Source of the DNA: Streptomyces tsukubensis
Lineage (GTDB): Bacteria > Actinomycetota > Actinomycetes > Streptomycetales > Streptomycetaceae
Length of the DNA stretch: 64,000 nucleotides
Assembly: GCF_003932715.1 (NCBI RefSeq)
Contig: NZ_CP020700.1
Coordinates: forward strand, 5,974,501-6,038,500
Reading direction: 5' to 3'
Below are positions 27,434 to 60,800 of the stretch, piece after piece. Position 1 is the first letter of the stretch; every line of letters starts with the position of its first letter. Under the pieces are notes generated by a model. That model made no database searches and had not been told where the DNA came from. It worked only from the letters and a program-made list of their open reading frames with translations. The position numbers and the translations under genes were made by a program.

Positions 27434-27963
27434 ACGCAGCAGACACAGCAGACGCGGAAAGGCCGGCTGCCTCGGAACAGGGGGGGTAGTTCCGAAACAG
27501 CCGGCCGGACCGGGCCGCCGCGCGCCCCGGGGGGTTTGGGGCGAGCGGCCATCCGATCGGTGAGGAGTCCCGGAACCCAGGGCTCCGGTGCCGTGCGCAA
27601 AGGCACGCGAGGAACAGTGCTGGGGATGCGCCGTTCCCGGGTCGCCCGCGGAGAACCGCGGGCGGGGTGTTTCTCTCATCCTGCAGAAACCGTACGGCAG
27701 TGGTCGGACGGGGGACAGGCGGATCGCGATCCCGCCACAGCTTCTTCACAGGCCCTGACGGTTGCGGTCCGCCGGGGCGCGGCCGTGGCGAAGGCCCTGG
27801 CGAGCGGGGCTCGCCAGGGCCTTCAGCCGCTGGTCACGGGGCTGTCCGCCGGACGCCCACGGCACGGGGCCGGGGGCGTCCGGCCCATGACCGGCGGCCG
27901 CTTCGGGGCCGGTGGACCGGGAACCGACAGCCGCTTCGGGGCCGGCGGTCCGGGGCCGTCTGC
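27434..27963. other. gene-free stretch between gabT and PAP2 gene
   Basis: If the PAP2 start is at 27433, about 530 bp carry no gene. It holds the strong gabT terminator at 27791-27823 and a second dyad (GCCGGACGCCC and GGGCGTCCGGC, about 27849-27885). It also holds a direct repeat of about 25 bp containing CGCTTCGGGGCCGG (around 27896-27925 and 27926-27955). The part 27434-27679 could instead be coding if the PAP2 protein begins further upstream. Confidence 0.5.
27791..27823 (-). terminator. strong hairpin terminator of gabT
   Basis: A perfect 15 bp stem (AAGGCCCTGGCGAGC against GCTCGCCAGGGCCTT) closes a GGG loop, 141 bp past the gabT stop. It is flanked by A and T at the stem base, giving a short A/U stretch on either strand. 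Confidence 0.88.
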
Positions 27964-43718: not shown

Positions 43719-43920
43719 CGGGGCACGGTCGCTTTGCGGCCCCGCGGGGCTCGTGCCGGGACAGCCGGACGGGTCGGAGCCCGGGTCGCCTGGCGGTCGG
43801 CAGCACCCGGCGCCGCCGGTTCGGGGTCGGGGACGCCCCGGGACCGCCCGGACCGCCGTCCGGTGTGGGCTCCACGGAGCGGAGCCCCCCCGGCGGACGC
43901 AACCCCGGGCGCGGGACCGT
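43719..43920. repeat. minisatellite module, short copy
   Basis: About one and a half units of a ~57 bp repeat (43719-43800) are followed by a tail (about 43815-43920) carrying the palindrome CCGGACCGCCGTCCGG (43848-43863) and CACGGAGCGGAGCC. The first 35 bases (43719-43753) recur exactly at 44135-44169, and the tail recurs at about 44340-44460. The whole is a shorter copy of the module at 44049-44460. Confidence 0.8.
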
Positions 43921-44048
43921 CGCGGGATTCCGGAGTCGCCCCGGAGACGGGGTATCCCGGAACCGCAGGGCCCGGGAGCCGGTGTCGCCGGGCTGCTCCG
44001 GCGGCGACCAGGAGCCTTCAGACCCCGGCGCTGGTGCCTCGCCCGCCG

Positions 44049-44460
44049 GGGCTCGGCACCGGGACAGCCGGTCGGCTCGGGGCACGATCGCCTGGCGGCC
44101 TCGCAGGGCTCGGCACCGGGACAGCCGGTCGGGTCGGGGCACGGTCGCTTTGCGGCCCCGCGGGGCTCGGGACGTGGGACAGCCGGTCGGGTCGGGGTAC
44201 GGCCGTCTTGCGGCCTTGCGGGGCTCGGGAGGCGGGACAGCCGGTGGGCTCGGGGCATGGCCGTCTTGCGGCCCCGCAGGGCGCGGCACCGGACAACCGG
44301 ACAGGCCGGAGCTCTGGTCGCCCCGCCGCCCGCAGGGCTCGGCACCGCCGGTTCCGGGTGCCGGGACCGCCCCCCGAAGCGCCCGGACCGCCGTCCGGTG
44401 ACGGCCCACGGAGCGGAGCCACCCCCCCCGGCGGACGCCGACCGGCCCCGAGCACGACCG
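44049..44460. repeat. 57-58 bp minisatellite, about five units, plus tail
   Basis: Units begin at 44049, 44106, 44163, 44221 and 44279, each starting GGGCTCGGCACCGGGACAGC or a variant and ending near TTGCGGCCCCGCA. Spacings are 57, 57, 58, 58 and 56 bp, so the array does not keep a reading frame. The tail after 44340 contains the same palindrome (44383-44398) as the short copy. The 1.2 kb block 43426-44660 has no convincing gene. Confidence 0.88.
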
Positions 44461-46242: not shown

Positions 46243-47940
46243 ATGGCAGCCCAGGTCCAGCGCATGTCCCGTCTGATGGTCAAGACACTGCGCGACGACC
46301 CGGCAGACGCGGAGACCCTCAGTCACAAGCTCCTGGTCCGCGCCGGGTACGTCCGGCGCAACGCGGCCGGCATCTGGTCCTGGCTGCCGCTGGGCAAGGC
46401 CGTCCTCGACAACATCACCCGGGTCGTCCGCGAGGAGATGGACGCCGCGGGCGCCCAGGAAGTGTCGCTCCCCGCGCTGCTGCCGAAGGAGCCCTACGAG
46501 GCCAGCGGCCGCTGGGACGAGTACGGCGCCGAGCTGTTCCGGCTCAAGGACCGCAAGGGCGCCGACTACCTCCTCGGCCCCACCCACGAGGAGATCTTCA
46601 CCCTGCTGGTGAAGGACCAGTGCTCGTCCTACAAGGACCTGCCGGTCGTCCTCTACCAGATCCAGACGAAGTACCGCGACGAGGCGCGGCCCCGTTCGGG
46701 CATCCTGCGCAGCCGCGAGTTCCTGATGAAGGACTCGTACTCCTTCGACACCACCGACGAGGGCCTGGCCGAGTCCTACGCGCTCCACCGCGAGGCGTAC
46801 ATCAAGATCTTCCGGCGGCTCGGGCTCGACCACCGCATCGTCTCCGCCGTCTCCGGCGCGATGGGCGGCTCGGCGTCCGAGGAGTTCCTGGCGCCCGCCG
46901 CGGCCGGCGAGGACACCTTCGTGCACTGCACCTCCTGCGACTACGCCGCCAACACGGAAGCCGTCACCTTCACCGTGCCCGCCGCCGAGACGGCGGAGCA
47001 CCCGGCCGTCGAGCGGCTGGACACCCCGGACACCCCCACCATCGAAACCCTCGCGGCCCACCTCGGGGTGCCCGCCTCGGCGACCCTGAAGAACCTCCTC
47101 GTCAAGGTCGACGGCGAGATCGTCGCCGTCGGCGTCCCCGGGGACCGCGAGGTCGACCTCGGCAAGCTCGCCGAGCACCTCGCCCCCGCCGAGGTCGAAC
47201 TGGTCACCGCCGACGACTTCACCGGCCGCCCCGACCTGGTCCGCGGCTACGTCGGCCCCCAGGGCCTCGACAAGGTCCGCTACCTGGCCGACCCGCGCAT
47301 CGCCGCCGGTACGGCGTGGATCACCGGCGCCAACGAGGAGGGCTTCCACGCCCGCAACGTCGTCGCCGGCCGCGACTTCGAGGTCGACGAGTACCTGGAC
47401 GTGGTCGTCGTCGAGGAGGGCGACCCCTGCCCCAAGTGCGGCCACGGCCTCAAGCTGGACCGCGCCATCGAGATCGGCCACATCTTCCAGCTGGGCCGCA
47501 AGTACGCGGACGCCTTCCAGCTCGACGTCCTCGGCCGGAACGGCAAGCCCGAGCGGGTGACGATGGGCTCGTACGGCATCGGGGTCTCCCGTGCCGTCGC
47601 CGCACTCGCCGAGCAGACCGCCGACGAGCAGGGCCTGTGCTGGCCCGCGGAGATCGCCCCCGCGGACGTCCACGTGGTCGCCGCGGGCAAGGCCGCCCAG
47701 ACCGAGTTCGCCCTCGAAGCGGCCGAGCAGCTGGCGGCGGCGGGCCTGCGGGTCCTGGTCGACGAGCGCCCCGGGGTCTCCCCGGGCGTCAAGTTCACCG
47801 ACGCGGAACTGATCGGCGTCCCGAAGATCCTGGTCGCCGGCCGCAGGGTGGCCGAGGGCGTGGTGGAGCTGAAGGACCGCCGCACGGGTGAGCGCGAGGA
47901 GCTCCCGCTGGCGGAGGCGATCGCCCGTCTCTCGTCGTAG
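46243..47940 (+). CDS. proS: prolyl-tRNA synthetase (bacterial type)
   Basis: This 565-residue class II synthetase charges tRNA-Pro. Motif 1 is near [19 protein letters not shown], and motif 2 is [21 protein letters not shown]. The editing INS domain (about 230-390) follows, and motif 3 is GSYGIGVSR. The C-terminal anticodon-binding domain includes [18 protein letters not shown]. Presence of the INS domain marks the bacterial form able to clear mischarged Ala-tRNA. ATG at 46243 has AGGAG at a spacing of six. TAACCT (46194-46199) may be its -10. Confidence 0.97.
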
Positions 47941-47956
47941 CCCCCGGGCCCGGGGG
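47941..47956 (+). terminator. palindromic terminator of proS
   Basis: The 16 bp perfect palindrome CCCCCGGGCCCGGGGG starts at the base after the proS stop codon. Confidence 0.6.
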
Positions 47957-48062
47957 TGGTCGTGCCCCGGGGGTGCGGGCGCGTTGGGCCGCGGGCGCCG
48001 GTGTCCCTGCTCCCGCGGGGTGCGCGCCCTGCCCGGTGCAGGTCTCTTGTGCGGTTGAGTCC

Positions 48063-48654
48063 CGCACTCCGTGGTGTAGGTCACCGGTCCTGCCGGGTTC
48101 GGCTGGGTCGGTGGCCTCCGGGCTCACCTCCTCGCGGCCTGCGATGCACTGCCCTCCGGCAAACCGTGCTTGTCGCAGGTCCACTGCGGGGGCGACCCTG
48201 CACCCCCCTCCCACGTGATCCCGACCTGATCAGCCCGCGAGGTCCCCGGTGATGTCGCGCGTCACCGGGGAGGCGGAACTCTCCTGATCACCGCCCGGGG
48301 AGATATCCCCTTCTCGGGGCACAGGCACCCCCTGATCTGCGGGGACCGCTTGGTGGGTGACCGGGCGGACTCCTTGTCTCCGGGGTCAAGTCGGGTGATC
48401 TCCGGAGGGGGGTGCAGGGTCGCCCCCGCAGCCATGGGCGACAAGACCGGACGCGCTTCGGGGCAGTGCATCGCCCGTGGCGAGGAGGTGAGCCCGGAGG
48501 CCACCGACCCGGCCGCACCCGACAAGACCCCGCGCCTACCCCACGGAGTAACGCAACTCGACCACCGGAGGACCCGCACACCGCAGGGACGGGCAGCCCA
48601 AAAAGGGGCGCGAGGAACTGCGCGACCAGCCCCCACCGGCCCGCAGCCGGAAAA
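48063..48654 (+). repeat. ~0.6 kb structured repeat element, copy 1
   Basis: This noncoding block has two arms of about 150 bp (48066-48220 and 48402-48555) that are imperfect reverse complements. Each carries GGGCTCACCTCCTCG and GGGGGCGACCCTGCACCCCC or their complements. A central loop of about 180 bp contains the conserved core CGCGTCACCGGGGAGG...GGGGCACAGGCACCCC (48258-48331). The right end carries GGGGCGCGAGGAACTGCGCG, a motif I recall as common in Streptomyces intergenic DNA. The same element occurs inverted at 59100-59690. Reading frames across it are not credible genes. Confidence 0.88.
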
Positions 48655-48678
48655 CGCACCGCGCCCTAGCGGGACGCG

Positions 48679-49581
48679 CTACAGCCAGGACGCGAACTCC
48701 AGCAGCGGTTCCGCTTCCCGCGCGCGGTCCGCGCGCATCGCCGCGACCGCCGCCGTCACCGTGCGGAACAGCGTCCAGCCGAGGACCCGGTCCCGGTCCA
48801 GGTCCAGCGAGTCGGCGAGGCGCCCCACCCGGCGGCGGGCCGTCGAGGGGCCCGCGGTGGTGGCGACCAGGTCCTCCGCGCGGTCCCGGGCCAGCCGCGC
48901 CAGGTCGTAGGCCCGTTCCCCGACGAGCGGTGAGGGCCCGACCGCGAGCCACGGGGCCCGGTCACCGGCCAGCACCTTGCCCTGGTGGAAGCAGCCGTGC
49001 AGCAGGAAGGCCTCGGGTTCCCCGGCGGCCAGCAGCTCCTCCCGTACGGCAAGGGCCGCGTCGATCAGGGGCGCCACGGTGTCGCCGGGGTCCGCGGCCC
49101 GCAGACGCTCCGCCGCGGCGGCTGTGCGGTCCGCCACGGACGGGAGGCCGTGCCCGGGAGGCGGCGGGGCCCAGAGCCTGCGCAGGGTGCCCGAGGCCTC
49201 CAGGACGGCTTTGGCTTCGGGCAAGGAGCGTACGGACACTTCGGGGTGGAGCCGTTCCAGCAGCAGACCGGTGGGGCCCGCGTCGCCGAGGAGCCGGACG
49301 GCCCCGGAGCCGTCCCAGGTTTCCAGGGCGGTCCGTTCGTGGCCGGTCGCGGCCGACGGCGGGGCGAGTTTCAGGGCTGCGGGGGTGCCGTCGGGGAGGT
49401 GTACGAGGACGACGAGGCTGCCGCGGCCGCCGGGTGCCACCACCCGCTCGACGACCAGTCCGGTCTGTTCGACCGTGCGGGCGAGCAGCTCCGGCAGCCG
49501 GGTGAGCCAGAGTGCGTCTTCCTGTGTGCTGTCGCCTTCGGCGAGCGCCCGCACCAGACGCCGGGGCGCTTCGAAATCCAT
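48679..49581 (-). CDS. aminoglycoside/hydroxyurea phosphotransferase-like protein, catalytic Asp missing
   Basis: This 300-residue protein resembles the APH(6)/hydroxyurea phosphotransferase family over its full length. The family catalytic motif HGDLHxGN appears as HGCFHQGK (195-202), so the catalytic Asp is Cys197 and the metal Asn is Lys202. The later IDPKGLVGDPAYD motif reads VGPSPLVGERAYD (214-226), losing the DFG-like Asp. The N-lobe Lys71 in AALKLAPP remains. It is probably a pseudokinase or a divergent enzyme. ATG 49581 was preferred; ATG 49602 is possible. It lies beside repeat element copy 1. Confidence 0.85.
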   Translation of the reverse strand: MDFEAPRRLVRALAEGDSTQEDALWLTRLPELLARTVEQTGLVVERVVAPGGRGSLVVLVHLPDGTPAALKLAPPSAATGHERTALETWDGSGAVRLLGDAGPTGLLLERLHPEVSVRSLPEAKAVLEASGTLRRLWAPPPPGHGLPSVADRTAAAAERLRAADPGDTVAPLIDAALAVREELLAAGEPEAFLLHGCFHQGKVLAGDRAPWLAVGPSPLVGERAYDLARLARDRAEDLVATTAGPSTARRRVGRLADSLDLDRDRVLGWTLFRTVTAAVAAMRADRAREAEPLLEFASWL

Positions 49582-49618
49582 GCCTGTGCGACTTCCTCTC
49601 ATGCCCGTGTGGGCACTC

Positions 49619-50074
49619 CTACGCTCCGGCCGGTCGGCCGGTGGCCGCCGAACGCTCGACGAGCCCAGGAAAGGCTACGCCGGTGCCGCTCCAGCGCACG
49701 GACCGCACCGCCGCCTCCCGCAGTGCGGCCGCCGCTTCGGTCCGCAGGGCCCCCTGCGCGGCCCTGACCAGGTCGGAGCAGGCGCCGGCGGTCCGGTCCT
49801 CCAGATGGGCCGCGAGGCGCCCGGCGGCTGCGGCGTCCGGTACGGGGAAGGGCAGGGCGTAGGCAGGTGCGGCGGCCACGGGGGTGCCGCCGAGGTCGCG
49901 GACGGCCCGGATCAGGGCGTCCCGGCGGGCCCGGTGCGCGGTGTGGGCGGCCCGGGCCTCGGGCTGCCGGGCCGTGCCGATGCGGGCGCCGACGACTCCG
50001 TACCCGTACACCGCCGCGTGTTCGGCGGCGAGCGCCGCCTGGACGGCGGCCAGCGGTTCCCGGTCCCTGCTCAT
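49619..50074 (-). CDS. ferritin-like domain protein (DUF4439)
   Basis: This 151-residue protein is almost all helix: AAVQAALAAEHAAVYGYGVVGARIG begins the first, and AAHTAHRARRDALIRAVRDL a second. It matches the DUF4439 ferritin-like family of actinobacteria. The E-H pair in AAEHAAVYG could bind metal, but a full di-iron set is not clear. Its ATG overlaps the stop of the upstream lipoprotein gene by four bases (50071-50074), so the two are cotranslated. Confidence 0.82.
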   Translation of the reverse strand: MSRDREPLAAVQAALAAEHAAVYGYGVVGARIGTARQPEARAAHTAHRARRDALIRAVRDLGGTPVAAAPAYALPFPVPDAAAAGRLAAHLEDRTAGACSDLVRAAQGALRTEAAAALREAAVRSVRWSGTGVAFPGLVERSAATGRPAGA

Positions 50075-50643
50075 CGGCCCTCGCCCCCGGGCGCGGACGC
50101 GGCGGGGCGGGTCAGCAGATAGGCGTTGGCGGCTCCGGCCGCGGCCACCGACGCGAGCAGCCGTGCCAGTTCGGGTCCGGCTCCGGCGAGGGCGGTGGTG
50201 TGGGCGGCGGAGGACCGGCGCTCCGTGGCGGCCAGCTCCGTGAGCGCCGCCGCGGGATCGGGCGGGACCACCGCCGGGGCTCCTCCGGCCCCCGCGGGGG
50301 CGCCGCCGAGGGCGGTGGCGTGCGCGGCGGACGCGGCCCGCAGTGGCGCCAGCCGTCCGGCCAGCGCCGGATGTGCGGCGATCACCGCGTCGTACCGGTC
50401 CCGGAGCGCTCCGCCGGATGCGGCCAACCGTTTCCTCAGGGCCGTGTCCGCCGCCGCCGAGACCTCGGACGAACCCGGCGCGCTTCCGCGTTCACGCGCC
50501 CCCTCGGCACCGTGCGCGCGGTCGCGTCCGCCCGGCTCCGACGGCTCACCCGAGCAGCCCGAGAGCGCCCCTGCCACCACCGCACCTGCTGTCGCGCCCG
50601 TCACTGCGAGCGCTCTTCGTCTCGTCGTTCCCGGGCGCCTCAC
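50071..50643 (-). CDS. lipoprotein with ferritin-like (DUF4439-type) helices
   Basis: This 190-residue protein has an Arg-rich Tat-like signal (TTRRRALAVTGATAGAVVAG) ending in the lipobox LSGC at about residue 29, so it should be anchored at the outer face of the membrane. The rest is Ala-rich helical, with repeated H-A-T-A-L type stretches (SAAHATALGG, SAAHTTALAG). This suggests an internal duplication and the same fold as the cotranslated neighbour. GTG at 50643 follows AGGGAG at six bases. The function is unknown; it is divergent from rimP. Confidence 0.78.
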   Translation of the reverse strand: MRRPGTTRRRALAVTGATAGAVVAGALSGCSGEPSEPGGRDRAHGAEGARERGSAPGSSEVSAAADTALRKRLAASGGALRDRYDAVIAAHPALAGRLAPLRAASAAHATALGGAPAGAGGAPAVVPPDPAAALTELAATERRSSAAHTTALAGAGPELARLLASVAAAGAANAYLLTRPAASAPGGEGR

Positions 50644-50839
50644 GCGTCTCTCCCTTAATCCGTCGGTGGTTCCGTGATGATCATCGCCGCAGGCGAGCGT
50701 ACCCGCGGGTCCCCCTCGGGTGGACGGCAACACCCTTCCGGACCGGATACCCTTTGATCTGACACGCGACCATCCGTGACGGCACCCCGCACGGACGCGA
50801 CGGACCCACAACAGCACACGCGGCCGAGGAGTCACCCGG

Positions 50840-51337
50840 ATGAGCACCACCCAGAGCGAGAGGCTGCGAGCGCTGCTGGATCCGCTCGTCAGCGCCGCCG
50901 GACTGGATCTCGAAGAGATCGAGGTGACCCGGGCGGGCCGTCGCCGTCAGCTGAGAATCGTGGTCGACTCCGACGAGGGCGTCACCCTCGACGCCTGTGC
51001 CGAGCTGAGCCGTGACATCTCCGGCGCGCTCGACGCCTCCGATGTGATGGGCGAGGAGGAGTACACCCTCGAAGTCGGTTCGCCCGGCGCCGACCGCCCG
51101 CTGACCGAGCCGCGCCACTATGTGCGCGCCGCCGGCCGTCTGGTGAAGTTCCGCCTCCACGAGGGCGACGACTTGGTCGCCCGGGTGCTCGCCGTGGACG
51201 AGGACGGGGTGGACGCCGAGGTTCCGGGGGTCAAGGGTCGCAAGCCGACCGCCCGCCGGATCGCCTTCGGCGAGATCGCCGGGGCGCGTGTCGAGATCGA
51301 GTTCAACCGCAAGGACAAGAAGGAAGAGGAGGCGTAG
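50840..51337 (+). CDS. rimP: ribosome maturation factor RimP
   Basis: This 165-residue protein assists 30S subunit assembly. The N-terminal domain includes GLDLEEIEVTRAGRRRQLRIVVDSDEG, the family hallmark, and the region GEEEYTLEVGSPGADRPL is well conserved. The C-terminal SH3-like barrel ends in a Lys/Glu-rich tail. ATG at 50840 has GAGGAG upstream. It is the first gene of the rimP-nusA operon; nusA begins three bases after its stop. Confidence 0.95.
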   Translation: MSTTQSERLRALLDPLVSAAGLDLEEIEVTRAGRRRQLRIVVDSDEGVTLDACAELSRDISGALDASDVMGEEEYTLEVGSPGADRPLTEPRHYVRAAGRLVKFRLHEGDDLVARVLAVDEDGVDAEVPGVKGRKPTARRIAFGEIAGARVEIEFNRKDKKEEEA

Positions 51338-51339
51338 CC

Positions 51340-52353
51340 GTGGACATCGACGTAAAGCTCCTGAAGGGCTTGGCACAGGAGAAGGAGATTCCCTTCGACC
51401 TGCTGGTCGAGGCGATCGAGTCGGCCCTCCTCATCGCGTACCACCGCACCCCGGACAGCCGCCGCCAGGCCCGGGTCGTGCTGAGCCGGGACACCGGCCA
51501 TGTGACCGTCTGGGCGAAGGAGGACCCGGCCGACGTGCCGGAGGGCCAGGAGCCCAAGGACTTCGACGACACCCCGACCGACTTCGGCCGGATCGCCGCG
51601 ACCACGGCCCGCCAGGTCATCCAGCAGCGGCTGCGGGACGCCGAGAACGACGTCACCTTCGGCGAGTACGCCCGCCGGGAGGGCGATATCGTCTCCGGCC
51701 AGGTGCAGCAGGGCAAGGACCCGAAGAACGTCCTGGTCAAGCTGGACGACAAGCTGGAGGCCATCCTGCCGGTGCAGGAGCAGGTCCCCGGCGAGGAGTA
51801 CACCCACGGGCTGCGGCTGCGCACCTATGTCGTCCGGGTGGCCAAGGGTGTGCGCGGTCCGTCCGTCACCCTCTCCCGCACCCACCCGAGCCTGGTGAAG
51901 AAGCTCTTCGCGCTGGAGGTCCCCGAGATCGCGGACGGCAGCGTCGAGATCGCCGCCATCGCCCGCGAGGCCGGCCACCGCACCAAGATCGCGGTCCGCT
52001 CCACCCGGTCCGGGCTGAACGCCAAGGGCGCCTGCATCGGCCCGATGGGCGGCCGGGTCCGCAATGTGATGGCCGAACTGCACGGCGAGAAGATCGACAT
52101 CGTCGACTGGTCGGACGACCCGGCCGAAATGGTGGCGAACGCGCTCTCCCCGGCCCGGGTCAGCAAGGTGGAGGTCGTGGACCTCGGGGCCCGTTCGGCC
52201 CGGGTCACCGTCCCCGACTACCAGCTCTCCCTGGCGATCGGCAAGGAAGGGCAGAACGCCCGGCTCGCCGCGCGCCTCACCGGCTGGCGCATCGACATCC
52301 GCTCGGACACCGAGCAGCCCGCCGATGCCCCCACGGAGCAGAACGGCCGCTGA
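51340..52353 (+). CDS. nusA: transcription termination/antitermination factor NusA
   Basis: This 337-residue protein binds RNA polymerase and nascent RNA. The N-terminal polymerase-binding domain (about 1-105) is followed by S1 (about 115-190, [20 protein letters not shown]) and two KH domains (about 200-335, including [29 protein letters not shown] and [23 protein letters not shown]). It lacks the acidic repeats of E. coli NusA, as is normal in actinobacteria. The GTG start is two bases after the rimP stop. Confidence 0.96.
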
Positions 52354-52537
52354 CCCGCACGACAGGCTCCGTACCCCGGCCCCCCGGGGCTACGGGACTG
52401 CGGGATCACGGTCCGGTGGTCCACCGGCTCCGGCCGGAACGGCACCCCGCGGCCACCCACCGTGGCCGAACGAGACAGATGAGTGTTCGATTTTTGCCCC
52501 AAACGGGTGAGGTCGCTATGGGGAGGTAGACTTAGCC

Positions 52538-52825
52538 GTGTCTGGCCGGACGCATGTCGGCGCATGCCCAGAACGTACGTGTGTGGGCTGCCGCGAGCGG
52601 GCGGCCAAGAGCGACCTTCTGCGCATCGTGAGAATCGGGGACGAGTGCGTCCCCGATGATCGCGGTACGCTGCCCGGCCGGGGTGCGTATGTACACCCCG
52701 CCGTGGTCTGTCTCGACCAGGCGGTCCGCCGCCGGGCGTTTCCCCGGGCCCTCAGGTCCGAGGGCCCGCTCGACACGGCCGCACTCCGTCTGCACGTGCA
52801 GGCGGTGACGGAGCAGGACGAGTAA
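52538..52825 (+). CDS. YlxR family (DUF448) RNA-binding protein
   Basis: This 95-residue protein has the YlxR signature [20 protein letters not shown] near its start and [16 protein letters not shown] in the middle. YlxR proteins lie between nusA and infB in many bacteria and have been linked to RNA binding and to RNase P. GTG at 52538 has GGGGAGG at a spacing of about 11. A 184 bp gap after nusA holds TTTGCC-17 bp-TATGGG as a possible internal promoter. Confidence 0.92.
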
Positions 52826-52889
52826 GAAGAAGTACGGCACGGGACCCCGTGCGGTCAGGTACCTCGCGAGTCGGAAGTAGGTCGAGATT

Positions 52890-52922
52890 GCGATGAGCAC
52901 TCGATGAGTACGCGATGAGTAC
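52890..52922 (+). repeat. 11 bp direct repeats forming overlapping mini-ORFs upstream of infB
   Basis: Three consecutive units GCGATGAGCAC, TCGATGAGTAC and GCGATGAGTAC create ATG codons at 52893, 52904 and 52915. Each mini-ORF (MSTR, MSTR, MSTPMK) ends in a TGA that overlaps the next ATG, except the last, which ends in TAG at 52933-52935. Confidence 0.75.
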
Positions 52923-52939
52923 GCCCATGAAGTAGCGAC

Positions 52940-52960
52940 GGTCCGGCGGTAATCCGGACC
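52940..52960 (+). promoter_or_regulatory. hairpin abutting the infB ribosome-binding site
   Basis: GGTCCGG (52940-52946) pairs perfectly with CCGGACC (52954-52960) around CGGTAAT. The stem ends two bases before AAAGGAG (52963-52969), the infB ribosome-binding site, so its folding could affect initiation. Confidence 0.6.
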
Positions 52961-52973
52961 TCAAAGGAGCGAA

Positions 52974-55900
52974 GTGGCTAAGGTCCGGGTATACGAGCTC
53001 GCCAAGGAGTTCGGTGTGGAGAGCAAGGTCGTCATGGCCAAGCTCCAGGAACTCGGTGAATTCGTCCGTTCGGCGTCCTCGACGATCGAGGCGCCGGTTG
53101 TGCGCAAGTTGACTGATGCGTTGCAGGGGTCCGGCTCCGGTGCCGGCAAGACCGCTGCCAAGCCGGGTGCGCCCCGTAAGGCCGCGCCCACCCCCGCCGC
53201 CCCCCGACCGGGCGGCCCCACCCCCGGCGCGCCCGGTTCGGCCGCGCCCCGTCCCGCTGCCCCCAAGCCCGGCGCCCCGGCCCCCCGGCCGACCGCCGCC
53301 GAGGCCCCCGGCAGCACGTCTTCCCCGGCAGCGCCGGCCGGCCCGCGTCCGGGCCCGAAGCCCGCGTCCCGGCCCGGTCCGGTCACGCCCGTGCCCGCGG
53401 CGGAGTTCTCCGCCCCGGCGCCCGCGCAGCCGGCCGCCCCGTCGGCGCCTGCCGCGCCGTCCGCACCTGCCGGGAACTCCGGTCCCCGGCCCGGTGCCCC
53501 CGGCCCGCGTCCCGGCGCCCGCCCCGGCCAGTCCGGCGGCGGCCAGGGTGCCCCGCGCCCCGGTGGCGAGCGCCCCGCGCGCCCCGCGGCCGGCCAGGGT
53601 GGCCCGCGTCCCGGCGGTAACCGTCCGGCCGGTCCCCGTCCAGGCAACAACCCCTTCACCTCCGGCGGCTCCACCGGCATGGCGCGCCCGCAGGCGCCCC
53701 GTCCCGGCGGCGGCCGTCCCGGTGGTGCTCCGGGCTCCGGTGCCCCGCGTCCGCAGGGCGGCCCCGGCGGCGCCCCGCGCCCGCAGGGCCAGGGTGCTCC
53801 CCGTCCCACGCCCGGCGCGATGCCGCGTCCGCAGGCCCCCCGCCCCGGCGGCGGTCCCGCGGGCAACCGCCCGAACCCGGGCATGATGCCTCAGCGTCCG
53901 GCCGCGGGCCCCCGTCCCGGCGGCGGCCCCGGTGCCCGTCCCGGTGGTGGCGGCGGCGGTCGTCCCGGCGGTCCCGGTGCCCGTCCCGGCGGTGGCGGCG
54001 GCGGCGGCTTCGCCGGCCGTCCCGGCGGCGGTGGCGGCGGCGGTCGTCCCGGTGGCGGCGGCGGCTTCGCCGGTCGTCCCGGTGGCGGTGGCCCCGGTGG
54101 CGGTGGCGGCGGCTTCGGCGGTCGTCCCGGCTTCGGTGGCCGTCCCGGCGGTCCCGGCGGCCGTGGTGGCACGCAGGGCGCCTTCGGCCGTCCCGGCGGA
54201 CCGGCCCGTCGTGGCCGCAAGTCGAAGCGGCAGCGGCGCCAGGAGTACGAGGCCATGCAGGCCCCGTCGGTCGGCGGCGTGATGCTGCCCCGCGGCGGCG
54301 GCGAGACCATTCGCCTGTCGCGCGGTGCATCCCTCACCGACTTCGCGGAGAAGATCAACGCCAACCCGGCGTCCCTGGTCGCGGTCATGATGAACCTCGG
54401 CGAGATGGTCACTGCCACGCAGTCCGTCTCCGACGAGACCCTCCAGCTCCTCGGCGGCGAGATGAACTACACGGTTCAGATCGTCAGCCCGGAGGAGGAG
54501 GACCGCGAGCTCCTGGAGTCCTTCGACATCGAGTTCGGCGAGGACGAGGGCACCGAAGAGGAACTGGTCTCCCGTCCGCCGGTCGTCACGGTCATGGGCC
54601 ACGTCGACCACGGAAAGACCCGACTGCTCGACGCGATCCGCAAGACCAACGTGGTCGCGGGCGAGGCCGGTGGCATCACCCAGCACATCGGTGCCTACCA
54701 GGTCGCGACCGAGGTCAACGGCGAGGACCGCCGGATCACCTTCATCGACACCCCGGGTCACGAGGCGTTCACCGCCATGCGTGCCCGTGGTGCCAAGTCG
54801 ACCGACATCGCGATCCTCGTGGTGGCGGCCAACGACGGTGTGATGCCCCAGACGATCGAAGCGCTCAACCACGCCAAGGCGGCCGACGTGCCGATCGTGG
54901 TCGCGGTGAACAAGATCGACGTCGAGGGCGCGGACCCGACGAAGGTGCGCGGCCAGCTCACCGAGTTCGGTCTGGTGGCCGAGGAGTACGGCGGCGACAC
55001 CATGTTCGTCGACATCTCCGCCAAGCAGGGCCTCCACATCGAGGAGCTGCTGGAGGCCGTCGTCCTCACCGCCGACGCCTCCCTCGACCTGCGCGCCAAC
55101 CCGAACCAGGACGCCCAGGGCATCGCGATCGAGTCCCACCTCGACCGCGGCCGTGGCGCCGTCTCGACGGTCCTGGTCCAGCGCGGAACGCTCCGCATCG
55201 GCGACACCATGGTCGTGGGCGACGCCTACGGCCGGGTGCGGGCCATGCTCGACGACAAGGGCGAGAACGTGGAGGAGGCCGGTCCCTCGACCCCGGTCCT
55301 CGTCCTCGGCCTCACCAACGTCCCGGGCGCCGGCGACAACTTCCTCGTCGTCGACGAGGACCGCACCGCCCGTCAGATCGCGGAGAAGCGCGCCGCTCGC
55401 GAGCGCAACGCCGCGTTCGCCAAGCGGGTGCGCCGCGTCTCCCTTGAGGACCTCGACAAGGTCCTCAAGGCGGGCGAGATCCAGCAGCTCAACCTCATCA
55501 TCAAGGGCGACGCGTCCGGATCGGTGGAGGCCCTCGAATCCTCCCTGCTCCAGCTCGACGTCGGCGAAGAGGTCGACATCCGGGTCCTGCACCGCGGTGT
55601 CGGTGCGGTCACCGAGTCGGACATCGACCTGGCCATGGGCTCCGACGCCATCGTCATCGGCTTCAACGTCCGCGCGGCCGGCCGTGCCTCGCAGATGGCG
55701 GAGCGCGAGGGCGTCGACGTCCGGTACTACTCGGTGATCTACCAGGCCATCGAGGAGATCGAGGCGGCCCTCAAGGGCATGCTGAAGCCGGAGTTCGAAG
55801 AGGTCGAGCTCGGTACGGCGGAGATCCGCGAGGTCTTCCGCTCGTCCAAGCTGGGCAACATCGCGGGTGTCCTCATCCGCTCCGGCGAGGTCAAGCGGAA

Positions 55901-56096
55901 CACCAAGGCCCGTCTCATCCGCGACGGCAAGGTCATCGCGGAGAGCCTCAACATCGAGGGTCTGCGCCGCTTCAAGGACGACGTCACCGAGATCCGCGAA
56001 GGCTTCGAGGGCGGTATCAACCTCGGAAACTTCAACGACATCAAGATCGACGACGTCATCGCGACGTACGAGATGCGCGAGAAGCCGCGCGGCTGA
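52974..56096 (+). CDS. infB: translation initiation factor IF-2
   Basis: This 1040-residue GTPase delivers fMet-tRNA to the 30S subunit. The N-terminal IF2_N motif ([20 protein letters not shown]) is followed by about 370 residues of Pro/Ala then Gly/Arg low complexity (about 55-420). The G domain begins near residue 542 with GHVDHGKT and continues with DTPGHE, NKID and SAK. Domains II to IV follow, including the C-terminal tRNA-binding part. GTG at 52974 has AAAGGAG at a spacing of four or five. Composition shifts sharply in the Gly-rich stretch (53890-54190). Confidence 0.97.
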
Positions 56097-56102
56097 TGCG
56101 CT

Positions 56103-56160
56103 GCAGTCGGCCGGGGCCGGTCGGCGGGAGAAATTTCCGTCGATCGGCCCCGGCCGCTGC
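56103..56160 (+). terminator. long hairpin between infB and ylxP gene
   Basis: GCAG-TCGGCCGGGGCCG (56103 on) pairs with CGGCCCCGGCCG-CTGC (ending 56160), extended inward by GTCG/CGAT, around a GAGAAATTTCC loop. It lies seven bases past the infB stop and may terminate or attenuate readthrough into the rbfA genes. Confidence 0.7.
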
Positions 56161-56237
56161 GTGTACGGTTCCGGTGTCCCTGCCGAACACCGGCAGGAGC
56201 CCTTGAACCCGAACCGGCGGGACATCCGGATAACTCC

Positions 56238-56531
56238 ATGTATGTGGGAACGCTGTCCTTCGATCTGCTCCTCGGCGACGTACGGTCGCTGAAGGAGAAG
56301 CGCTCCGTGGTCCGTCCGATCGTCGCCGAGCTCCACCGCAAGTTCGCGGTGAGCGCGGCGGAGACCGGCGACCAGGACCTCTACCGAAGGGCCGCGATCG
56401 GCCTCGCGGTGGTCTCCGGCGACACCGGACATCTGGCCGACGTACTCGACCGGTGCGAACGCTTCGTCGCCGCCCGGCCGGAAGTGGAACTGCTCTCGGT
56501 TCGACGCAGGCTCCACAGCGACGAAGACTGA
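56238..56531 (+). CDS. YlxP-like DUF503 protein
   Basis: This 97-residue protein has the DUF503 pattern: MYVGTLSFDLLLGDVRSLKEKRSVVRPI at the start and AIGLAVVSGDTGHLADVLDRC later. The family lies between infB and rbfA in Gram-positive bacteria. Its function is unclear; a role in ribosome assembly is assumed from context. ATG at 56238. It begins 141 bp after infB, behind a hairpin. Confidence 0.92.
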   Translation: MYVGTLSFDLLLGDVRSLKEKRSVVRPIVAELHRKFAVSAAETGDQDLYRRAAIGLAVVSGDTGHLADVLDRCERFVAARPEVELLSVRRRLHSDED

Positions 56532-56591
56532 AGTGGAACGCCCACCACGGACATCGTGGCGGGGCACAGCAGGTAAGAAGGAGAAGGACCA

Positions 56592-57089
56592 GTGGCCGAC
56601 AACGCGCGGGCGAAGAAACTGGCGGACCTGATCAGGGAAGTCGTCGCCGAGAAGCTACAGCGCGGTATCAAGGACCCGCGGCTCGGCTCGCACGTGACCA
56701 TCACCGACACCCGGGTCACCGGCGATCTGCGGGAGGCCACGGTCTTCTACACGGTCTACGGCGACGACGAGGACCGGGCCAGCGCCGCAGCCGGGCTCCA
56801 GAGCGCCAAGGGCGTCCTGCGCAGCGCGGTCGGCGCCGCGGCGGGCACCAAGTTCACCCCGACGCTGACCTTCGTCGCGGACGCCCTCCCGGAGAACGCC
56901 AAGACCATCGAGGACCTCCTCGACCAGGCCCGCGCCTCGGACGCCCGGGTCCGCGAGGTCTCCTCGGGAGCCGCGTACGCCGGTGACGCCGATCCGTACC
57001 GCAAGCCCGAAGACGACGCCGACGACGCCGCCGAAGGCGACGACGGCGCCACCGACGGTGACCGCAGCGGGGGCTCCGCGTCCGCATGA
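56592..57089 (+). CDS. rbfA: ribosome-binding factor A
   Basis: This 165-residue KH-fold protein assists late 30S maturation near helix 1 of 16S rRNA. The N-terminal helix RAKKLADLIREVVAEKLQRG and the strand VTITDTRVTGDLREATVFYTVYG are family-typical. An acidic tail of about 35 residues (DDADDAAEGDDGATDGDRSGG) is added at the C-terminus. GTG at 56592 has AAGAAGGAGAAGG upstream. It overlaps truB by four bases (ATGA at 57086). Confidence 0.95.
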   Translation: MADNARAKKLADLIREVVAEKLQRGIKDPRLGSHVTITDTRVTGDLREATVFYTVYGDDEDRASAAAGLQSAKGVLRSAVGAAAGTKFTPTLTFVADALPENAKTIEDLLDQARASDARVREVSSGAAYAGDADPYRKPEDDADDAAEGDDGATDGDRSGGSASA

Positions 57090-57985
57090 CCCAGCGCACC
57101 CCCGCACCCGACGGCCTGGTCATCGTCGACAAGCCGTCGGGCTTCACCTCCCATGACGTCGTAGCCAAAATGCGCGGTATCGCCCGCACCCGCCGGGTCG
57201 GCCACGCAGGCACCCTCGACCCCATGGCGACCGGCGTCCTCGTCCTCGGCATCGAGCGGGCCACCAAGCTCCTCGGCCATCTCGCGCTCACCGAGAAGGA
57301 GTACCTGGGCACGATCCGGCTCGGCCAGAGCACCGTCACGGACGACGCCGAAGGCGAGATCACCGCCTCCGCCGACGCCTCGGGTGTCACCCGCGAGGCG
57401 ATCGGCACCGGAGTCGCCGCCCTCAGCGGCGCGATCATGCAGGTGCCGTCGAAGGTCAGCGCCATCAAGATCGACGGCAAGCGTTCGTACGCCCGCGTCC
57501 GCGGCGGCGAGGACTTCGAAATCCCCGCCCGACCGGTCACCGTCTCCTCCTTCCGGGTCTACGACGTCCGGCCGGAAACCGCCGATGACGGCACCCCCGT
57601 CCTCGACCTCGTGGTCTCCGTCGTCTGCTCCTCCGGCACCTACATCCGGGCCCTCGCCCGCGATCTGGGCGCCGGTCTCGGCGTCGGCGGCCATCTGACC
57701 GCCCTGCGGCGCACCCGCGTCGGCCCCTACGGACTGGACGCGGCCAAGACCCTCGACCAGCTCCAGGAAGAGCTGACCGTGATGCCCGTCGCCGAAGCCG
57801 CCGCCGCGGCTTTCCCCCGCTGGGACCTCGACGCCCGGCGGGCCGGGCTGCTCGTTAACGGGGTACGGCTCGACATGCCCGCCTACGACCGCTCACCCGT
57901 GGCCGCCTTCGGCCCCGACGAACGGTTCGTGGCACTCGTCGAGGAGCAGAAAGGCAAGGCGAAGAGCCTCGCGGTCTTCGTCTGA
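57086..57985 (+). CDS. truB: tRNA pseudouridine(55) synthase
   Basis: This 299-residue enzyme makes pseudouridine at position 55 of tRNA. The catalytic Asp is D45 in GHAGTLDPMATGVLV. Other family motifs are VDKPSGFTSHDVV at the start, KEYLGTIRLG, and PSKVSAIKIDGKRSYARVR. The C-terminal PUA-like part carries FVALVEEQKGKAKSLAVFV. ATG at 57086 overlaps the rbfA stop. It is the last gene before the ribF promoter region. Confidence 0.96.
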   Translation: MTQRTPAPDGLVIVDKPSGFTSHDVVAKMRGIARTRRVGHAGTLDPMATGVLVLGIERATKLLGHLALTEKEYLGTIRLGQSTVTDDAEGEITASADASGVTREAIGTGVAALSGAIMQVPSKVSAIKIDGKRSYARVRGGEDFEIPARPVTVSSFRVYDVRPETADDGTPVLDLVVSVVCSSGTYIRALARDLGAGLGVGGHLTALRRTRVGPYGLDAAKTLDQLQEELTVMPVAEAAAAAFPRWDLDARRAGLLVNGVRLDMPAYDRSPVAAFGPDERFVALVEEQKGKAKSLAVFV

Positions 57986-58091
57986 GGCCCCGAGGGGGCG
58001 GCCGGTGGCGGCCGGGGGGCGTGGGCATGGCAGTCTTAGACCTGCGAATACTGGTCTTGAACAACTGATGGTTCGGCGAGGAGCGGTCACA

Positions 58092-59033
58092 GTGCAGCGC
58101 TGGCGTGGCTTGGAGGACATCCCCCAGGACTGGGGGCGCAGCGTCGTCACCATCGGTTCCTACGACGGTGTCCACCGCGGCCACCAGTTGATCATCGGGC
58201 GGGCGGTGGAGCGGGCCCGAGAGCTGTCCGTCCCCTCCGTCGTGGTCACCTTCGACCCGCACCCCAGCGAGGTCGTCCGCCCCGGCAGCCACCCGCCGCT
58301 CCTCGCGCCCCACCACCGGCGGGCCGAACTGATGGCCGAACTGGGGGTGGACGCCGTCCTCATCCTCCCCTTCACCGCCGAGTTCTCGAAGCTCTCGCCC
58401 GCCGACTTCATCGTCAAGGTCCTCGTCGACAAGCTCCACGCCAGGACCGTCGTGGAAGGCCCCAACTTCCGCTTCGGCCACCGGGCCGCGGGCACCGTGG
58501 ACTACCTTGCCGAACTGGGCGCCACCTACGACTACGACGTCGAGGTCGTCGACCTCTACGTCAGCGGCGAGGCGGGCGGCGGCGAACCCTTCTCCTCCAC
58601 CCTCACCCGCCGGCTCGTCGCCGCGGGCGACGTCGAAGGCGCCCGCGAAATCCTCGGCCGCCCCCACCGCGTGGAGGGCATCGTCGTCCGCGGCGCACAG
58701 CGCGGCCGCGAACTGGGCTTCCCCACGGCCAACCTGGAGACCCTGCCGCACACCGCGATCCCCGCGGACGGCGTGTACGCGGGCTGGCTCACGGCGAACG
58801 GCGAGCGGATGCCGGCGGCGATCTCCGTCGGCACGAACCCGCAGTTCGACGGCGTCGAGCGGACGGTCGAGGGGTACGCGATCGACCGCGTCGACCTCGA
58901 CCTGTACGGGCTGCACGTCGCGATCGACTTCTTCGCGTACGTGCGCGGCCAGGAGAAGTTCGCGTCGGTGGACGAGCTGCTGGTGGCGATGGGCCGCGAC
59001 GTCCAGCAGTGCCGGGAGATTCTGGGCATGTAG
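58092..59033 (+). CDS. ribF: bifunctional riboflavin kinase/FAD synthetase
   Basis: This 313-residue enzyme makes FMN and FAD. The N-terminal FAD synthetase domain has the nucleotidyl transferase motif GSYDGVHRGHQ (22-32; Tyr replaces the common Phe). The C-terminal riboflavin kinase domain (about 185-313) has GRELGFPTANL and PADGVYAGW. I chose GTG 58092 because GAGGAG (58078-58083) is eight bases upstream; earlier in-frame starts are poorly placed. No FMN riboswitch is visible upstream. Repeat element copy 2 lies directly downstream. Confidence 0.96.
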   Translation: MQRWRGLEDIPQDWGRSVVTIGSYDGVHRGHQLIIGRAVERARELSVPSVVVTFDPHPSEVVRPGSHPPLLAPHHRRAELMAELGVDAVLILPFTAEFSKLSPADFIVKVLVDKLHARTVVEGPNFRFGHRAAGTVDYLAELGATYDYDVEVVDLYVSGEAGGGEPFSSTLTRRLVAAGDVEGAREILGRPHRVEGIVVRGAQRGRELGFPTANLETLPHTAIPADGVYAGWLTANGERMPAAISVGTNPQFDGVERTVEGYAIDRVDLDLYGLHVAIDFFAYVRGQEKFASVDELLVAMGRDVQQCREILGM

Positions 59034-59099
59034 CCGGGGCGCCTCCCGCCGCGGGGGGCCTCGGGGTGCGGGGCGCGCCGTTGGTGGTTTCGGTTGCGT

Positions 59100-59690
59100 G
59101 TCCGGCCGCGGGCCGTGGCTGGCTGGTCGCGCAGTTCCTCGCGCCCCTTCATGGTGTCCCCGCCCCTGCGGTGTGCGGGGTCTTTCGCGGTCGGGTCGCG
59201 TTACTCCGTGGTGTAGGCGCGGGGTCTTGTGGGGTGCGGCCGGGTCGTGGGCCTCCGGGCTCACCTCCTCGCCGGCGGCGATGCACCGCTCCACGGGGAG
59301 CCCTGCTTGTCGCCACCGGCTGCGGGGGCGACCCTGCACCCCCCTCCGGAGATCACTCCGACTTGACCCCCGGGACGAGGAGTTTCCTCGGTCACCCACC
59401 ACGGGGTGGAGGGGCTTTCAGGGGTGCCTGTGCCCCGAGAAGGGGAAATCTCCCCGGGCGGTGATCAGGAGAGTTCCCCCTCCCCGGTGACGCGCAACGA
59501 CACCGAGAACCTTGGGCGACTGATCATGCGGGGATCACGTGGGAGGGGGGTGCAGGGTCGCCCCCGCAGCAGGCTGCGAAAAGACCGGACGCGTTTCGGG
59601 GCGGTGCATCGCAGTCTGCGAGGAGGTGAGCCCGGAGGCCACCGACCCACCCGCACCCGGACAAGACCGGCGACCTACACCACGGAGCAA
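59100..59690 (-). repeat. ~0.6 kb structured repeat element, copy 2 (inverted relative to copy 1)
   Basis: Read on the minus strand, this block aligns end to end with 48063-48654: left arm, near-invariant core (59424-59494), right arm and the GGGGCGCGAGGAACTGCGCG end. Its own arms (about 59205-59360 and 59535-59690) are imperfect reverse complements. The two copies differ by scattered substitutions and a more variable inner spacer. The open frames on either strand are shadows that repeat between the copies and lack start signals. Confidence 0.88.
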
Positions 59691-59734
59691 CGGTCACCCA
59701 ATCTTTCAGCCCCGCCGGCGCTTGAGGCGCAGGA

Positions 59735-59819
59735 GCGCCCGCACCTTGCGGGCAACGGCACCCCCGGGGGCCCGGGGGCCCAATGCGCCCGCACCCCGCG
59801 GGCAACGGCACCCCCGGGG
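59735..59819. repeat. 35 bp direct repeat, two copies, between ribF and ABC operon
   Basis: Units at 59735-59769 and 59785-59819 (GCGCCCGCACC, two variable bases, GCGGGCAACGGC, ACCCCCGGGG) differ at two positions. Each contains a small CCGC/GCGG dyad. They lie at the convergent end of ribF and the ABC operon and may act as terminators. A degraded relative is at about 47960-48000, beside element copy 1. Confidence 0.8.
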
Positions 59820-59834
59820 CCGGGGCCCCACCCT

Positions 59835-60800
59835 TCACACAAGGTGGCATGCCACCCCGTCGCCCCGCACCGGAGCCGGCTGCTCCGTCACGCAGCGGGC
59901 CGCCACCCCCGCCTCCTCCGCCGCCCCCGCGGCTCCCGCGGCCAGCGCCGGGCAGCGGGCGTGGAAGCGGCAGCCCGGGGGGATGCGCGCCGGGTCCGGG
60001 GGTTCGCCGGTGAGGACCGCCGGTGGCAGCGGCGACTCCGGGAGGACCGACAGCAGGGCCCGCGTATAGGGGTGGCGCGGTTCGGTGAGGACCGTCTCCA
60101 CCGGGCCCGACTCCACCACCCGCCCCAGGTACATCACGGCCACCCGGTCCGCGATGTTCCAGGCCAGCCCCAGATCGTGCGTGACGATCAGCGCGGAGAG
60201 CCCCGGTTCGGTGCGGAGCCTCAGGAGCAGGGCGAGGATCTCGCCGCGTACCGAGGCGTCGAGGGAGGCCACCGGTTCGTCCGCGACGATCAGCGCCGGT
60301 TCGAGGACGAGCGCGCCCGCGATGACGACCCGCTGCCGCTGTCCGCCGGACAGTTCGTGCGGGTAGCGCAGGAAGAAGCGTTCCGGCGGGCGGAGCCCGG
60401 CGAGGGACAGGGCCCGGGCCACGGCCGCCCGCTCGTCCCCGGGTGCCCGGTGCACCCGCAGGCCCTCGGCGACCGCGTCGTACACCGTGTGCCGGGGGTT
60501 GAGGGAGCCCGTCGGGTCCTGGAGGACCAGTTGGGCGCGGCGCCGGTAGGCCTTGAGGGCCCGGGGCGTGTAGTCGAGCGGCCGGCCGTCGAAGGAGACC
60601 GTGCCCGATGTCGGTCGTACGAGCCCGAGCAGCGCCCGCGCCAGTGTCGTCTTGCCGCAGCCGGACTCCCCGACGAGGGCGACGATCTCGCCCGCGCCGA
60701 CCGTCAGATCGACCCCGTCGACGGCGCGTGCGACGGGCCCTCCGCGCCGCCCGGGAAAGGCGATGTGCAGATCCTCGGCGCTCAGGAGTGCGTGGGTCAC
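59835..60800 (-). CDS. oligopeptide/dipeptide-type ABC transporter ATP-binding protein (DppF-like)
   Basis: This 321-residue ATPase has Walker [10 protein letters not shown], the signature LSGGQRQRV, Walker B LIVADEPVASLD and the C-terminal oligopeptide-transport tail PPGCRFHARCP, whose cysteines are typical of DppF/OppF. GTG at 60800 has no ribosome-binding site; instead it overlaps the stop of a 21-codon leader ORF (GTGA at 60797-60800). That leader arose from a 62 bp tandem duplication. The protein works with the DppD-like ATPase and two permeases encoded upstream. The substrate could be peptides, nickel or opines. Confidence 0.9.
   Translation of the reverse strand: MTHALLSAEDLHIAFPGRRGGPVARAVDGVDLTVGAGEIVALVGESGCGKTTLARALLGLVRPTSGTVSFDGRPLDYTPRALKAYRRRAQLVLQDPTGSLNPRHTVYDAVAEGLRVHRAPGDERAAVARALSLAGLRPPERFFLRYPHELSGGQRQRVVIAGALVLEPALIVADEPVASLDASVRGEILALLLRLRTEPGLSALIVTHDLGLAWNIADRVAVMYLGRVVESGPVETVLTEPRHPYTRALLSVLPESPLPPAVLTGEPPDPARIPPGCRFHARCPALAAGAAGAAEEAGVAARCVTEQPAPVRGDGVACHLV

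Follow-up and report, generated by a model that had tools for sequence, protein, structure and literature searches.

A window of 64,000 nucleotides from the chromosome of Streptomyces tsukubensis (C1:5974501-6038500, contig NZ_CP020700.1; genome of 8.02 Mb in 3 contigs) carries two blocks of about 0.6 kb in opposite orientation on either side of the nusA-infB-ribF genes. Here, G000 denotes this genome, G006 is Streptomyces sp. CB03234, and other G numbers are compared genomes. The original prediction described the blocks as an inverted pair matching end to end, which might flip the essential genes between them or represent a dispersed nonautonomous element. The end-to-end match between 48063-48654 on the plus strand and 59100-59690 on the minus strand holds, with 495 of 593 positions identical by BLASTN (83%; 14 gap positions; E 2e-177), and these 593 aligned positions exceed the 400 bp that had been set as a check. 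The pair has the top score among the matches listed in a self-alignment of the window, where it extends to 47942-48651 and 59101-59825 at 80% identity, and the longest exact stretches common to both blocks are 39 nt. The blocks are not a special pair belonging to nusA-infB; they are two of 21 loci at which one hairpin-forming repeat is found in this genome. Ordinary intergenic sequence without other copies, the outcome that would have spoken against the prediction, is at odds with the many further copies in the genome. The idea of a dispersed nonautonomous element is borne out by the 21 loci together with hairpin relatives in other Streptomyces, and the copies would presumably have moved.

Each block is itself an imperfect palindrome, with arms at 48066-48154 and 48461-48549 in the first that are 84% complementary, and the DNA fold of 48040-48660 lies 21.8 standard deviations below that of 20 dinucleotide shuffles. 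The block is made up of two imperfect hairpins of about 112 nt, placed 3' to 3', and a separately dispersed tail of about 50 nt (Table 1). The hairpin unit of about 112 nt consists of an outer stem, a helix formed by two half-sites, an inner stem, and a variable apex. The half-sites, of about 20 nt each, are near-invariant in G000 around CCTCCGGGCTCACCTCCTCG and CTGCGGGGGCGACCCTGCAC. The half-site, in 48104-48215 as in the other arms, contains GGCTCACCTCCT, which may resemble the 3' end of 16S rRNA.

Table 1. Parts of the two blocks and the genes that face them, in window positions.
Feature	Position	Strand	Remarks
proS	46243..47940	+	ends toward copy 1
Copy 1, hairpin doublet and tail repeat	48063..48654	+	between proS and APH(6)-like kinase gene
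Copy 1 hairpin arm A	48104..48215	+	model R3 81.5 bits; 28/30 model pairs formed
Copy 1 spacer between hairpin 3' ends	48216..48399	.	184 nt
Copy 1 hairpin arm B, opposite strand	48400..48511	-	77.0 bits; 27/30 pairs
Copy 1 tail repeat, GGGGCGCGAGGAACTGCGCGACCAGCC type, also dispersed alone	48596..48654	+	
APH(6)/hydroxyurea-kinase-like gene	48679..49581	-	ends toward copy 1; protein of 48682-49581 matches APH_6_hur, 207 bits (cut-off 27)
ribF	58092..59033	+	ends toward copy 2
Copy 2, hairpin doublet and tail repeat	59100..59690	-	between ribF and dipeptide-type ABC ATPase gene
Copy 2 tail repeat	59101..59149	-	
Copy 2 hairpin arm B, opposite strand	59241..59351	+	72.8 bits; 26/30 pairs
Copy 2 spacer	59352..59537	.	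186 nt
Copy 2 hairpin arm A	59538..59649	-	88.0 bits; 28/30 pairs
Oligopeptide/dipeptide ABC ATPase gene	59835..60800	-	ends toward copy 2

Alignment identifies 33 hairpin arms in the S. tsukubensis genome, and the 21 loci comprise 12 doublets and 9 singles. With the block of copy 1 as the query, nine places cover most of its length and others have a longer middle or one arm only; a single-arm query recovers the same loci. On the 7.96 Mb contig all 21 loci fall within 1.25-6.82 Mb, for which a uniform spread would give a probability of 5e-4, calculated post hoc. This confinement would suit chromosome-structure sites, i.e., DNA palindromes, cruciform or protein-bound, whose copies are alike because they fit one binding protein, as would half-sites that differ between genomes and agree among the few copies viewed per genome (by eye). 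However, old inherited repeats would equally occupy the core, the family is present in a minority of the genus, and no replichore rule is visible by eye in G234 among the matches listed. A role in chromosome structure seems quite improbable.

The tail repeat has a distribution of its own, with 36 separate matches in G000, 11 beside a hairpin locus and 25 elsewhere. In several places two of its copies lie about 100-120 nt from each other, and the repeat occurs in many relatives and on Streptomyces plasmids. A search with the whole block, scoring nine candidates per genome, had a match in 22 of 61 genomes, its own included; apart from G006, the relatives' matches listed are to the tail only. The same is true of the plasmids, for which 8 records listed of 11 match the tail repeat only. 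Intergenic motifs such as CTCAAGCGCCGGCGGGGCTGAAA and GCCCGCGGGGTGCGGGC also recur beside many G000 hairpins, for example at 59690-59830.

A number of Streptomyces species share the hairpin itself. In 3 of 392 Streptomyces genomes the two half-sites were found as an exact pattern, with 30 matches in G000, 34 in G006, and 22 in G234, and a reversed-pattern control gave 0. In the GTDB set, using a search that may omit records near the window, the half-site pattern was found in 48 stretches from six named genomes, all Streptomyces. Half-sites are identical in the G006 arms compared, while most other arm sequence differs from G000. At a threshold of E 0.001, with rough model E-values and the weakest genomes near the threshold, covariance model R1 (built from 33 arms) matched 13 of the 392 Streptomyces genomes and covariance model R2 (150 aligned matches, 129 distinct) matched 29 of 392. 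In an order-wide draw R2 matched 21 of 293 genomes, one of which is from another genus of the same family (G579, best E 4.4e-7), and in a class-wide draw of 369 genomes from 131 genera model R3 matched four, all Streptomyces. Copy numbers in the compared genomes are lower bounds because the R1-R3 searches used strict filters and scored 9 to 12 candidates per genome. Phages gave no match to the element; two viral contigs each contain one half-site 19-mer, where R3 gave E 0.68 in one and no match in the other. Across these species the folded shape is kept and most of the sequence is not. The copies in S. tsukubensis are, on a balance tipped slightly in favor, one lineage-specific population of this Streptomyces hairpin family. 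The family is apparently undescribed: no account of this hairpin repeat was found among the results listed in literature searches, and a search by short motif strings found no paper, with subscription papers mostly outside the coverage.

Conservation of the fold is seen in paired changes, in counts that lean toward the structure because the rows of both alignments were fitted to it. In A3 (129 distinct rows) 92.7% of pairs are standard, compared with 80.4% after shuffling of the 3' letters and 39.5-63.3% after sliding, and 21 of 30 pairs show double-sided change. In A4, the most diverse alignment (98 rows, four of them weak and representing the opposite strand of a hairpin that the alignment already contains), the values are 90.4% standard pairs vs. 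71.1% shuffled and 40.0-60.5% slid, with double-sided change in 25 of the 30 model pairs and covariation of 0.445 vs. 0.130. The count of further pair types was equalled by 11 of 500 shuffles for A3 and 16 of 500 for A4. Both alignments contain covarying helices of the kind used as a test for structured RNA. Double-sided changes in the half-site helix can also be read in raw sequences, as in G255 and G356. A fold of three separate small hairpins was considered and dropped because double-sided changes link one half-site with the other.

A strong conserved fold is one of the points in favor of the main rival explanation, that the element is a functional RNA at gene 3' ends. In this case the hairpin would be transcribed from one or both convergent genes and would act as a terminator, exonuclease barrier, or processing site read via the invariant half-sites. 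The location of copies beyond gene ends agrees with such a role, and short abundant transcripts at palindromes have been described in S. coelicolor, many of them in 3' untranslated regions and probably decay intermediates (PMC4681348). Two G-U pairs on the half-site strand also count for an RNA, being (near-)invariant in A3, where they occur in 129 and 127 of the 129 rows, and frequent in A4, with 78 and 93 of 98. However, variable pairs on the same strand favor A-C over G-U (134 vs. 34 in A3 and 90 vs. 45 in A4), although 95 of the 134 A3 A-C pairs are at two adjacent columns and without them A3 is about even (39 vs. 31). An A-C pair on the half-site strand is a G-U pair on the opposite strand, which means that reading the opposite strand, as an RNA made from it would, reverses the counts. 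A tRNA control of 18 calls had 23 G-U pairs and 0 A-C pairs, with a finder that itself favors G-U. The pair pattern agrees better with a DNA-level structure, or one on both strands, than with a single RNA of the half-site strand, and falls short of proof. In repetitive extragenic palindromic sequences (REPs) the frequency of GT pairs is taken as a sign of transcription (PMC3733652); applied to the Streptomyces hairpin, this sign is mixed. The consensus 3' flank, drawn from 178 members, contains no T-run and so lacks the U-run of an intrinsic terminator, which also speaks against the RNA explanation. A known RNA family was ruled out, as Rfam has no family matching the element. No Rfam match there bears the name che1, an RNA motif reported from Streptomyces.

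The arrangement of doublets is highly ordered. All 25 doublets of a first set are in 3' to 3' order, as are 21 of 23 in a second set from other genomes (20 as printed and L145 by cmsearch), the exceptions being L222, a direct repeat, and L143, with three units. Spacer length is typical of the genome, at 183-186 nt in 8 of 11 G000 doublets, 26-92 nt in eight from CB03234, and 102-145 nt in eight from S. noursei. The wide doublet L147 (G255) has tandem repeats at 617-1500 between two facing hairpins; this one doublet was examined for an autonomous copy, and no called gene lies inside it.

No element lies inside any called gene, and the copies are found beyond gene ends, where single cases of context may be wrong because genes were called with a simple codon-usage script. 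In the first set, with orthologous sites of different species counted separately, 29 element gaps are convergent, 33 co-directional, and 4 divergent (n=66), compared with 6, 32, and 30 for element-free gaps of at least 250 bp at the same loci (n=68; Fisher p 3.5e-6 and 2.6e-7). A wider control of 242 element-free gaps of at least 40 nt has 25 convergent, 139 co-directional, and 78 divergent gaps, and the second set of element gaps has 15, 33, and 3, respectively (n=51). Elements are rare in divergent gaps and frequent in convergent gaps. Of the single copies in co-directional gaps of the first set, 15 of 18 had the sense orientation relative to the upstream gene, as a functional RNA would predict, but the second set did not repeat this bias (7 of 17), and pooling gives 22 of 35 (p 0.175); for this reason no mRNA-sense orientation rule is claimed.

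Comparison of orthologous sites provides a further view. The survey covered 30 genomes, G000 and 29 relatives, of which 15 carry the family at some locus and 14 gave no model match. Two of the 30, G000 and G006, have the element at the proS site. In the remaining 28, R2 gives no match there at E 1; their gaps measure 19-489 nt, and 21 do not exceed 155 nt. The ribF site is occupied in four (G000, G006, G234, and G275), with gaps of at most 284 nt in the other 26, 24 of them at most 134 nt. The element is absent from most orthologous gaps tested, which also weighs against a functional RNA; with this and the evidence above, that explanation is judged unlikely, if the most serious of the rivals. 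A tree of proS and ribF places the clade G006/G234/G275 apart from G000, and the window sites common to the two lineages would thus be explained by independent gain or by loss elsewhere.

Copies are more alike within a genome than at the same site of distant species. At the proS site the two G000 arms are 0.88 and 0.84 identical to other G000 arms, compared with 0.66 and 0.62 to the CB03234 arm there and means of 0.63 and 0.61 to CB03234 arms elsewhere. Among the G006 clade and S. noursei, arms at the same site have a likeness of 0.70-0.90 (at least 0.84 in 19 of 29 comparisons); means to the partner genome's other sites are 0.67-0.84, and some arms of the same genome are closer than same-site arms. 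Judged from sequence comparison, this pattern fits inheritance with spread or homogenization within genomes on top, and gene conversion would be compatible with the likeness within genomes. That likeness, and compensation with few G-U intermediates, could also be produced by inert repeats, with palindromes upheld by template-switch (quasi-palindrome) correction and gene conversion and a fold under no selection. Correction alone would, however, erase the half-sites and some mismatches that are kept across subtypes, and this explanation is highly improbable.

The explanation that accounts best for these observations, held at slightly better than even confidence, is a dispersed, noncoding, hairpin-forming element that resembles REPINs, the inverted REP doublets that form hairpins (PMC3116915), but without a REP-associated tyrosine transposase (RAYT). 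Units would spread and be homogenized inside a genome, as is thought for REPINs, with a putative trans-acting factor recognizing the folded strand, and copies may persist at places where no promoter is broken. Several points weigh against this reading. RAYT/IS200-type transposases (Y1_Tnp, PF01797) have 0 matches in G000 and likewise in G006, and such a protein was rejected as the partner on this basis; among the genomes compared, PF01797 has matches in 3 of 21 and in 5 of 14 controls. No transposition was seen and no target-site duplication was read; orthologous gaps were located, but none similar enough for alignment were found. Several sites are common to the G006 clade and S. noursei (radA-disA, mutT-pstS, and others), from which it follows that copies are often inherited. 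The likeness of singles vs. doublet arms is 0.887 vs. 0.863 in G000, 0.864 vs. 0.793 in CB03234, and 0.788 vs. 0.844 in S. noursei; the doublet-arm values combine two types of arm. The conserved half-sites could be explained equally well by a host function.

A more specific proposal, which is tentative and goes beyond what seems probable, is that of a RAYT-free class of long REPIN-like elements. The folded DNA unit of about 112 nt, in 3'-to-3' doublets, would be spread and homogenized in each Streptomyces lineage by a putative factor reading two invariant half-helices, with half-sites and factor co-changing between species. With its measurable fold, known carriers, and sites that can be compared, the family lends itself to direct testing of how palindromic repeats spread and remain similar in the absence of RAYT, and of whether a working element resides in convergent gaps.

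The inversion suggested for the nusA block finds no support. Identity between the blocks is 83%, exact stretches are at most 39 nt, and gene order is ordinary in relatives: proS, outside the segment, and ribF, inside it, are co-oriented in G000 and in all 25 of the 29 relatives that have both on one contig. The two genes are 2.6 Mb apart in G012, leaving 24 of the 25 informative, and among relatives only G006 has the element at both sites, such that the others show merely that the G000 order is the ordinary one. An inversion switch was set aside for want of support from this gene order, with no sign of a fixed inversion. Dispersed hairpin repeats of this kind can be mistaken for local inversion switches. 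The statement that no transposase lies nearby stands for the proteins scanned (nine genes inside the segment, the ABC gene to its right, proS, and ribF); one of these, 50071-50385, has no Pfam match, and infB and other open reading frames were outside the scan. Elsewhere in the window, self-alignment reveals a direct-repeat block at 43719-44438 and a 1.3-kb direct repeat at 65% (7680-9019 / 16612-17960), and Rfam matches the Streptomyces sRNA Scr5676 at 27552-27681 on the minus strand (95.8 bits).

Among known systems, Rfam RNA families share with the element a conserved single-strand fold with covariation but differ in that the element has no Rfam match and does not favor G-U over A-C on the half-site strand. 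The Ype, Efa, and Bor repeats of other taxa (PMC1590033) are likewise stem-loops near gene 3' ends, whereas the Streptomyces element has one fold across many species with compensatory change. Bacterial miniature inverted-repeat transposable elements (MITEs) are short, noncoding, and many-copied, with inverted-repeat ends. The Streptomyces element is also short, noncoding, and present in many copies with inverted arms that form terminal inverted repeats, but it differs from MITEs in that single arms are common, no partner transposase was found, and no duplication of a target site was read.

The closest comparison is with REPs and REPINs (PMC3116915 and PMC3733652). The Streptomyces unit is about 112 nt rather than 20-40 bp. 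Single REPs are less alike than doublet arms in the REPIN paper (PMC3116915), while doublet arms are more alike than singles in only one of three Streptomyces genomes. The REP tag is lacking at the hairpin base, with GTAG in 0 of 178 and CGTC in 5 of 178 of the 12-nt stretches before the hairpin; CGTC follows the hairpin within 12 nt in 35 of 178. Because both the tag before the hairpin and the RAYT match fail, the element is not filed as a REPIN, though it may work like one. Like REPs and REPINs, it is dispersed, extragenic, palindromic, and many-copied (21 loci in G000), with genome-specific subtypes and with inverted doublets separated by a spacer (12 of the 21 loci). REPs are mainly found between convergent and co-directional genes (PMC3733652), and the Streptomyces element also lies mostly in such gaps.

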